Below, piece by piece: positions 13,840 through 16,027 of a DNA stretch of 35,012 nt. The notes beneath the pieces were generated by a model. It saw only the letters and a list, made by a program, of their open reading frames with translations, was not told the DNA's origin and searched no databases. This DNA is from Gloeomargaritaceae cyanobacterium C42_A2020_066 (GTDB taxonomy: Bacteria > Cyanobacteriota > Cyanobacteriia > Gloeomargaritales > Gloeomargaritaceae), in the NCBI GenBank assembly GCA_015272465.1, contig JACYLR010000145.1, positions 1 through 35,012 of the forward strand, in the 5' to 3' direction. A program made the position numbers and the translations under genes. Every line of letters begins with the position of its first letter. The stretch's first letter is position 1.

Positions 13840-13853
13840 AGAGGGCCAACCCT

Positions 13854-13937
13854 GGGCGGGTGGCGAAACTGGTAGACGCAGCAGACTCAAAATCTGCCCC
13901 TCGCAAGAGGATGAGAGTTCGATTCTCTCCCCGCCCA
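13854..13937 (+). tRNA. tRNA-Leu (anticodon CAA)
   Basis: An 84-base class II tRNA folded by eye. The acceptor stem GGGCGGG (13854-13860) pairs with CCCGCCC (13930-13936), with discriminator A at 13937. The D-arm GCG/CGC has GGTAGA in its loop. The anticodon stem GCAGA/TCTGC encloses CTCAAAA with anticodon CAA at 13888-13890. The long variable arm is CCTC-GCAA-GAGG, and the T-arm is GAGAG-TTCGATT-CTCTC. CCA is not encoded. It reads UUG codons. It is on the opposite strand to its neighbours, and a WD40 reading-frame remnant begins at its last base. Confidence 0.97.
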
Positions 13938-14092
13938 TCAAACTCTGGAACCCGCAGACCGGGGCACTCCTAACCACCCTCCGGGGACATGAGGATTCGG
14001 TTTGGTGGGTGAGTTGGAGTCCTGATGGACGTGCCCTCGCCAGTGAATCGTATGATAAGGCCATCAAACTCTGGAAAGTATCCCTCCCCTGA
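13937..14092 (+). pseudogene. WD40-repeat gene remnant abutting tRNA-Leu
   Basis: From the tRNA discriminator base an open frame of 51 codons plus TGA encodes one full WD40 blade and its edges: IKLWNPQTGALLTTLRGH, then SVWWVSWSPDGRALAS, then AIKLWKVSLP. GH, SPDG and IKLW are the diagnostic elements. The DNA CCATCAAACTCTGGAA occurs at 13935 and again 126 bases (42 codons, one blade) later. No start codon or ribosome binding site precedes it; the frame runs back into the tRNA. It is therefore the C-terminal stub of a lost WD40 gene, whose break point coincides with the tRNA 3' end. Confidence 0.8.
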
Positions 14093-14171: not shown

Positions 14172-14513
14172 TCAGGCGGCTGGGCCGGGCCAATTTGGAA
14201 AAGCCACCAGCTTAACAATTACGCCCACAGATGCGGTGAAAACAGCCAAAAGAATTGTCCAGACCCGCCCCTCTTGCACATCTAGTCTTTTCTCGATTCG
14301 CTCTAGCCGCTGATCAATGCGCTTATCAAAATCTGTGATGCGCTGCTCTATGCGTTTGTCCAACTCCGTGATCCGTTGGTCAAGACTGATCAGGCGCTCG
14401 GTCGTTTGTGCTTGAAAAACGCGCGTCTCCTGCAAGCCCTGAGCCAGAGACTCGACTGCCGCAGTCAGCTTGTCGAGGCGGTTCAGCACATCCGAATCAG
14501 TAGCCTGGGTCAT
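14172..14513 (-). CDS. Coiled-coil membrane-anchored small protein, copy A1
   Basis: A 113-residue protein. The N-terminus MTQATDSDVLNRLDKLTAAV is shared with the two neighbouring copies. Residues about 10-85 are a heptad/11-mer coiled coil rich in DKRI and QRI repeats. One C-terminal transmembrane segment (WTILLAVFTASVGVIVKLVAF) ends in NWPGPAA. Compared with copy A2 it has an extra 11-residue coil repeat and lacks four residues (KLET). No enzymatic motif is present. The layout suits a tail-anchored oligomer or scaffold, which is inference. It shows no convincing Shine-Dalgarno. It is the last gene of a tandem A-B-A-B' array in transcription order. Confidence 0.75.
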   Translation of the reverse strand: MTQATDSDVLNRLDKLTAAVESLAQGLQETRVFQAQTTERLISLDQRITELDKRIEQRITDFDKRIDQRLERIEKRLDVQEGRVWTILLAVFTASVGVIVKLVAFPNWPGPAA

Positions 14514-14563
14514 GGTGCATTGGGAATCGCGCTATCCCCAGCGTAGCCCAACCAGTGGCTGGG

Positions 14564-14845
14564 TCATGGGGTAGGGCCACTGGGAAAGAAGGCCAGCTTG
14601 CCCAAGATACCCAGCAGGGCAGTCAAAGTCAGACCAATCAGCGTCCAAAATCGGCCCTCTTGGGCGTCAAGGCGTTTCTCAATGCGATCGAGGCGTTGAT
14701 CCATAGCCACAAGTTTTTCAGTTGTTTGAGCCTGGAATACTCGCGTCTCAAGTTTCGTTTCCTGCAAGCCCTGAGCCAGAGACTCGACTGCCACAGTCAG
14801 CTTGTCGAGGCGGTTCAGCACATCCGAATCAGTGGCCTGGGTCAT
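14564..14845 (-). CDS. Coiled-coil membrane-anchored small protein, copy B1
   Basis: A 93-residue paralogue. The N-terminal 30 residues match copies A1 and A2 almost exactly. The coil is shorter (KLVAMDQRLDRIEKRLDAQE), and the transmembrane segment is different: RFWTLIGLTLTALLGILGKLAFF. This second type of tail is shared only with the decayed copy at 15284-15460, defining a B form distinct from the A form. Function unknown. The upstream bases differ from those before the A copies just before the ATG, then converge again. Confidence 0.75.
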   Translation of the reverse strand: MTQATDSDVLNRLDKLTVAVESLAQGLQETKLETRVFQAQTTEKLVAMDQRLDRIEKRLDAQEGRFWTLIGLTLTALLGILGKLAFFPSGPTP

Positions 14846-14896
14846 GGTGGGTGTGGAAATCGCGCCATCTCTAGCGTAGCCCGGCCGGGTGAGAGG

Positions 14897-15217
14897 CTAT
14901 GCGGCCGGGCCGGGCCAATTCGGAAAAGCCACCAGCTTAACGATCACACCCACAGATGCAGTGAAAACAGCCAACAGAATTGTCCAGACCCGCCCCTCTT
15001 GAACATCTAGTCGTTTCTCGATCCGCTCCAGCCGCTGATCGATGCGCTTGTCCAAATCTGTAATGCGCTGCTCCAGGCTCATCAACCGTTCTGTTGTCTG
15101 GGCCTGGAAAACCCGCGTCTCAAGTTTGGTTTCCTGCAAGCCCTGAGCCAGAGACTCGACCGCCGCAGTCAATTTGTCTAGGCGGTTTAGCACATCGGAA
15201 TCAGTGGCCTGGGTCAT
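14897..15217 (-). CDS. Coiled-coil membrane-anchored small protein, copy A2
   Basis: A 106-residue protein, a near-twin of copy A1. It has the same N-terminus, the KLET insertion seen in B1, a shorter coil, and a C-terminus identical to A1 from RIDQRLERIEKRLDVQEGR through the transmembrane segment to GPAA. The DNA upstream of its ATG also matches that of A1, so coding and leader were duplicated together. As in A1, no clear ribosome binding site is seen. Confidence 0.75.
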   Translation of the reverse strand: MTQATDSDVLNRLDKLTAAVESLAQGLQETKLETRVFQAQTTERLMSLEQRITDLDKRIDQRLERIEKRLDVQEGRVWTILLAVFTASVGVIVKLVAFPNWPGPAA

Positions 15218-15283
15218 GGTGCATTGGGAATCGCGCCATCCCTAGCGTAGCCCGGCCGGGTGAGAGGCTATGCGGCTGAGCCA

Positions 15284-15460
15284 CTAGAAAAAACAGGAGT
15301 CCAGCTTGCCCAAGATACCCAACAAGGCAGTCAGGGTCAGGCCAATCAGCATCCAAAATCGGCCCTCTTAGGCATCAAGTCGTTTCTTGATTCGGTCGAG
15401 GCGCTGATCCATAGCCACAAGTTTTTCAGTCATTTGGGCCTGGAAAACTCACGTCTCAGC
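15284..15460 (-). pseudogene. Decayed copy B2 of the coiled-coil protein
   Basis: On the minus strand this reads like copy B1 from the ETRVFQ region through KLVAMDQRLDRI, KRLDA, EGRFW and LIGLTLTALLGILGKL. The shared N-terminal part is missing. Two in-frame stops interrupt it: the R of ETRVFQ is TGA and the Q of LDAQEG is TAA. Both are explained by single C-to-T changes (CGA to TGA, CAA to TAA). The transmembrane part is better preserved than the ends. It is certainly non-functional as a B-type protein. Confidence 0.8.
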
Positions 15461-15673
15461 TTTATAGCCGTTTCAAACAGAAACAATACACCTTTCTCAA
15501 CCCTACTACGACCCTTATGTGCCTTGAAACTCGTTGGTAGGAAGGATGCCGCGAGGATAGAGGTGAACATGGGTGTCTCACGCCTAACCAAAGTGGCTAG
15601 CTATAGGTGTCAGAGCGGTGGGGCATCTGGCGGTCTCAGGGTTGGTAAAGCCGTGCTGCTGCTGGGATTAGGA

Positions 15674-16027
15674 TCATCCCCTGGGCCAGTAGAGGATCAG
15701 TAGTGCCCCAAGTGTCGCTACGCCCGCCCCCACAAGGTCGCCCAGATCCGGCACCTTGCCCTCGACCCGCGCCCCCCATACCAAGGCCATCAGAATAAAT
15801 AACCCTCCATAGGCGGCGTAGACCCGACTGAAATGGTGTGCAGTCTGGAGGGTCGGTAAGATGCCATAGGCAAAGAGCACAAGGGCACCCAAAAGACCTA
15901 CGGGCAATCCCCAGCCTTCCCGTAACCATAACCACACCAGGTACCCACCCCCAATCTCACACAGGCCGGTGATACCGTAGATGCCTAGGGTTTTGCTCAC
16001 GTTGAACAGGGCGTTGAGCTTATCCAC
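15674..16027 (-). CDS. YnfA/UPF0060 family membrane protein
   Basis: A 117-residue protein with four predicted membrane helices. The family signature GLCEIGGGYLVWLWLREG (about residues 21-38), SRVYAAYGGLFILMALVWG and GDLVGAGVATLGALLILY identify UPF0060. These resemble half-size drug/metabolite transporter or SMR-like folds; the substrate is not known. The GTG at 16027 is the only reasonable start, with a weak ribosome binding site. It lies 20 bases downstream of tpiA in the same direction and is the last gene of the long co-oriented block. The palindrome GGCCGGCC is absent here. Confidence 0.88.
   Translation of the reverse strand: MDKLNALFNVSKTLGIYGITGLCEIGGGYLVWLWLREGWGLPVGLLGALVLFAYGILPTLQTAHHFSRVYAAYGGLFILMALVWGARVEGKVPDLGDLVGAGVATLGALLILYWPRG

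Follow-up and report, generated by a model that had tools for sequence, protein, structure and literature searches.

A tandem array of predicted tail-anchored coiled-coil protein genes in a Gloeomargaritaceae cyanobacterium represents an unnamed family with modular array evolution

The nearest known architecture to that of the proteins described here is found in the CCDC90-like/DUF1640 class (PF07798), in which an N-terminal head is followed by a coiled-coil stalk and a single C-terminal membrane anchor, an order of parts that the array proteins are predicted to share. In this class, the stalk starts with a beta-layer motif (PMC4786415). By size and layout, the nearest counterpart is XhlA (PF10779), the haemolysin and holin partner of phage PBSX, which is likewise small and has a single membrane segment at its C-terminus, after the coiled coil. 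The Bdr proteins of Borrelia also carry a C-terminal membrane segment. They are multi-copy proteins of unknown function whose internal imperfect repeats vary in number between near-identical orthologues, and their genes reside on Borrelia plasmids, cp32 among them (PMC3303823). The likeness between Bdr and the family described here is one of architecture and repeat variation only, and our family differs in being cyanobacterial and in lying on chromosomes and some plasmids.

We analysed a 35,012-nucleotide stretch of DNA (the window; contig JACYLR010000145.1) from Gloeomargaritaceae cyanobacterium C42_A2020_066. Its minus strand carries three intact paralogous ORFs (A1, B1 and A2) and one remnant (B'), with the transcription order B'-A2-B1-A1 (Table 1). 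A sequence-only reading had described an A-B-A-B' array of four coiled-coil paralogues sharing their N-terminal 30 residues. The tandem array is real, but that order is the plus-strand order, and although three related ORFs are intact and have near-identical heads, the fourth copy is broken. Specifically, B' has no head and contains in-frame TGA and TAA codons and a 4-nt insertion, so it is a pseudogene rather than a fourth gene, and the sharing of the N-terminus is limited to three genes. The best-pair DNA repeats in the array span 163–178 nt at 84–90% identity, far above chance; the two A copies share a repeat of 178 nt (90% identity), and B1 and B' share one of 169 nt (86% identity). The near-identity of the flanks downstream of B' and A2 indicates that the spacers were duplicated too. 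With A2 as the query, B1 is matched at E = 8.5e-35, a fifth paralogue on a separate contig of the same genome (G000:C97:12710-13078, the C97 paralogue) at 5.9e-23, and the B' remnant at 4.4e-9. The C97 paralogue lies about 570 bp downstream of a VapE-like domain gene (PF05272; L060 4611-7082), and such domains are frequent on phage satellites or plasmid-like elements.

Table 1. Features of the array in window coordinates; TM segments are predicted from hydrophobicity only.
Feature	Position	Strand	Description
A1	14172..14513	(-)	intact, 113 aa; rod of three 11-residue units between the shared head and an A-type tail; TM predicted at residues 87-105
spacer upstream of A1	14514..14563	(-)	related to other spacers; common GGGCTACGCT..GAT.GCGCGATT block
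B1	14564..14845	(-)	intact, 93 aa; rod of one 11-residue unit between the shared head and a B-type tail; TM predicted at residues 69-87
spacer upstream of B1	14846..14896	(-)	related to B'-A2 spacer
A2	14897..15217	(-)	intact, 106 aa; rod of two 11-residue units between the shared head and an A-type tail; TM predicted at residues 80-98
spacer between B' and A2	15218..15278	(-)	flank downstream of B' and flank downstream of A2 identical at 37/38 aligned bases
B'	about 15279..15463	(-)	decayed B-type copy without head; TGA 15449-15451, TAA 15368-15370, 4-nt insertion near C-terminal end

In each intact protein, a head of roughly 28 residues leads through a joint into a charged rod, and a single hydrophobic segment forms the extreme C-terminus. 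The rods differ in length by 11-residue units, a feature that the earlier description of coiled-coil paralogues did not mention. Specifically, the rod reads as one unit in B1 (MDQRLDRIEKR), two in A2 (LEQRITDLDKR-IDQRLERIEKR), and three in A1 (LDQRITELDKR-IEQRITDFDKR-IDQRLERIEKR), and A1 is additionally four residues shorter ahead of the rod. A long rod encoded in another genome has its strongest periodicity at 11/3, as expected of hendecads. An AlphaFold2 monomer of A2, computed from a 45-row alignment, is a single helix spanning residues 3-97; since it is a monomer model with a pTM of 0.31, it proves no assembly. Within the helix, confidence is lowest at residues 31-40, which correspond to the joint, and no strand is predicted there.

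The joint is conserved around [QIA]-A-x-[TI]-x-E, although this motif is missing or altered in many family members. The beta-layer consensus of the CCDC90/DUF1640 class, [aliphatic]-A-T-K-[polar]-[DE], resembles the joint of some relatives (IATTTEKF, IAKTDERF), and the window copies read QAQTTEKL, which is loosely like the consensus, at a position where the A2 model is a continuous helix with a dip in confidence. Apart from this Q-A-Q-T-T-E reading, the window proteins differ from the class in head sequence. PF07798 scores 16.7 bits on A1 against a gathering cut-off of 33.5, does not match A2 at E <= 0.001, and is outside the 25 most-matched families for 45 members of the family; because the Pfam cut-off is not reached, we do not claim membership.

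The earlier reading had distinguished two C-terminal tails and regarded them as different membrane anchors. Two tail types are indeed present, but both, like those of the relatives, contain one family motif, R-x-W-x(11)-G-x(3)-K-x(2)-F, and an alignment of the A tail with the B tail lies about 21 standard deviations above shuffles. Together, these results rule out two unrelated anchors and indicate that the A and B tails are homologous, having diverged from a single tail, so "different membrane anchors" is an overstatement. The B tail is nearest to that of the C97 paralogue and to tails from other genera, and the A tail thus looks like a derived form of the family tail. A tree of tails across the whole family contains too few aligned columns for the A tail to be placed.

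The same reading had proposed that an ancestral A-B pair was duplicated as a unit, a proposal that tails and rods support but that heads, which unite A1 with B1, contradict in its plain form. In the tails, A1 and A2 differ at 11/111 nucleotides and B1 and B' at 18/105, while A and B tails differ at about 42%. In the heads, by contrast, A1 and B1 differ at 2/84 nucleotides, A1 and A2 at 7/84, and B1 and A2 at 8/96. Between A1 and B1, DNA identity is therefore 98% in the heads versus 58% in the tails (2/84 versus 44/105 differences, p about 2e-11), and synonymous divergence pS is 0.05 versus 0.68 (p about 5e-6). Among the few informative head sites (8), six unite A1 with B1, one unites A1 with A2, and one unites B1 with A2; four of the six that unite A1 with B1 are derived relative to the C97 copy. 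Given the disparity in identity between heads and tails, duplication of a B-A gene pair followed by segmental conversion between B1 and A1 over approximately the first 28 codons fits best and is the simplest account. Constraint could explain part of the likeness of the A1 and B1 heads, even though the two parts differ so strongly in pS. Sequence comparison further shows that 11-residue units were gained or lost in the rods and that B' decayed; the copies were not each duplicated independently.

Comparison of A1 with A2 reveals 34 synonymous and 2 nonsynonymous changes (Fisher p about 4e-21), distributed as 7/0 in the head, 18/2 in the rod, and 9/0 in the tail, which shows that both A copies are constrained. 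The array genes therefore very probably encode real, functional proteins.

A seven-row profile retrieves relatives in 45/390 cyanobacterial genomes, and a 45-row profile retrieves them in 64/390 genomes and 36/160 genera, its weaker matches possibly being, in part, coiled coils only. A1, A2, B1 and the C97 paralogue score 2e-41 to 4e-50 against a seed profile that includes them, and the window genes display the features by which the family is delineated, namely a short head, a variable coiled-coil rod, and the tail motif. M1, K94 and F98 are conserved in >=90% of 45 members. Relatives are present in Petrachloros mirabilis, an Aphanocapsa, and a Thermosynechococcus metagenome assembly, as well as on Geminocystis plasmids and on pSYSM of Synechocystis PCC 6803. 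A plasmid search with B1 as the query gave no match, and one with another member gave eight cyanobacterial plasmid records. On pSYSM, SGL_RS00040 (L076 6001-6240), annotated as a 'hypothetical protein', is a single short member adjoining a site-specific integrase gene.

Some relatives are singletons, and others stand in arrays. One genome, G102, harbours tandem arrays of seven copies (L052 5036-8335) and five copies (L068 2375-4359), and there are three copies each in G062, G111 and G146, and two each in G072 and G361. The joint in the seven-copy array comes in two cassettes, LTLEVRTNQATTNEKF or DKKLDIHIATTTEKF. In the window's own taxonomic family, genome G006 has a four-gene array (L092 2534-6353); its members have a different type of tail (FGAIIAGVVIALVKYLFFP), and their rods consist of 11-residue units resembling KIDERFNTLDK. 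Copies in most arrays have similar heads and tails and rods of variable length. The G072 pair, however, mirrors the window mosaic, with like heads (pS 0.13) and unlike tails (pS 0.76), while the seven-copy array of G102 exhibits the opposite mosaic, some copies having heads at pS 0.42-0.54 and identical tails. These opposite mosaics indicate that head and tail recombine independently in several arrays.

Scans against Pfam, NCBIfam, PHROGs and PADLOC gave sub-threshold or generic coiled-coil matches only, and no curated family was reached. The earlier statement that no known family is recognisable thus holds for curated families, but relatives are widespread in cyanobacteria. Sequence matches in the PDB (apolipoprotein A-IV, reovirus sigma-1, haemagglutinin HA2, 6h9l, 8qox) are to trimeric and other coiled coils; as most have no single stretch that passes alone, we treat them as compositional. 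A Foldseek structure search and a literature search under one guessed locus name returned no match. What is new is the family itself, which is cyanobacterial and has no name, together with the modular way in which its arrays evolve; the kind of system is not new.

Several explanations of the array compete. We hold the architecture and the evolutionary account set out above with high confidence, and we give about even chances to the reading as a whole, in which the array encodes short tail-anchored coiled-coil proteins, as the best explanation. Among the alternatives, the one that survives best, though we consider it rather unlikely, is that a repeat-rich membrane protein gene of little individual importance duplicates and decays easily, so that copy number and rod length drift near-neutrally. 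The decay of B', the occurrence of members with internal stops in other genomes, and a copy number that ranges from 0 to >10 among the sampled genomes agree with such drift, but the strong purifying selection on A1 and A2, with 16 synonymous and 0 nonsynonymous changes in head and tail together, argues against it.

We regard as quite improbable the possibility that the genes encode XhlA-like lysis-associated membrane proteins, coiled-coil helpers of a holin in membrane hole-making, expanded from a prophage leftover. The PHROG profile phrog_937, 'hemolysin', is collinear with A2 (residues 4-96 to profile positions 22-110 of 115, E = 3e-5) and matches 11/45 members, PF10779 matches 4/45 members at E <= 0.001 (best E among the 45, 4e-7), and the C97 paralogue is near a VapE-domain gene, typical of mobile elements. 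However, PF10779 scores in the ten members shown individually are 18.6-25.2 bits against a cut-off of 34.7, XhlA is not listed for the window genes in the Pfam scan, and, because other families of coiled coils are matched about as well, composition accounts for much of the matching. Furthermore, a search of 50,697 phage records and of viral contigs found no relatives, and no holin or endolysin family was detected in 20 neighbour proteins of members and 9 other window proteins. The family also differs from XhlA in forming arrays with variable 11-residue rods.

The surroundings of family members were searched for a conserved partner gene in the sampled genomes and none was found: the neighbours differ every time and include a photosystem II protein, a release factor, a Clp-type ATPase, a PBP-like binding protein and a transposase, among others. 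We therefore reject a conserved operon partner, and the family genes appear to act without an obligatory linked one. The window array is flanked by housekeeping or unrelated genes, with tRNA-Leu and a transglutaminase/DUF2126 protein on one side and UPF0060/YnfA and what we take, from its sequence, to be triosephosphate isomerase on the other. The UPF0060/YnfA membrane protein gene (15674-16027, minus strand) is directly upstream of the array and adjoins the triosephosphate isomerase gene. At 13853-14089 (plus strand), the 3' end of a tRNA-Leu (caa) directly adjoins an orphan piece of WD40 repeat (PF00400, E = 1.1e-10), which may have been left behind by an element formerly inserted at this tRNA gene. 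In the corresponding stretch of three genomes of the same family, only the triosephosphate isomerase gene and one distant match were found among the window genes tried.

That the arrays are membrane-acting toxins or defence effectors, which would depolarise the membrane when triggered and exchange heads and tails under conflict, is suggested by their tandem, multi-copy and patchy occurrence, by segmental exchange, and by the plasmid-borne relatives, one of them adjoining an integrase, but is hard to credit given the lack of a conserved antitoxin or partner gene in the sampled neighbourhoods, PADLOC matches that are weak and scattered over coiled-coil models, and an A tail protein identical in A1 and A2 through purely synonymous change, which is not an arms-race pattern.

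For the preferred reading, tail-anchored coiled-coil proteins, we propose a stalk-and-head mechanism that is tentative and somewhat less likely than not to be right. The chains would associate in parallel as coiled-coil bundles, the C-terminus being embedded in the plasma or thylakoid membrane and the N-terminal head facing the cytoplasm. Through the head that they share, A and B copies may bind one common partner or may co-assemble; the reach would depend on the length of the rod, and the packing in the membrane on which tail, A or B, is present. The proteins would then work in the manner of head-neck-stalk-anchor proteins of the CCDC90/DUF1640 type. A bolder extension, which we put forward as a long shot, is a bacterial membrane-stalk kit in which tandem genes have head, rod length and anchor recombined as separate modules, so that one cell would own a graded series of co-assembling tail-anchored rods, each a molecular spacer with a fixed reach at its plasma or thylakoid membrane.

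The family outlined here can be recognised in many cyanobacteria, although it has no name. Synechocystis PCC 6803, a model strain, has one plasmid-borne copy, SGL_RS00040, which makes it feasible to delete or tag the gene. The arrays provide a clean case of the separate evolution of head, rod and tail in membrane-anchored coiled coils, by segmental conversion and by 11-residue steps.
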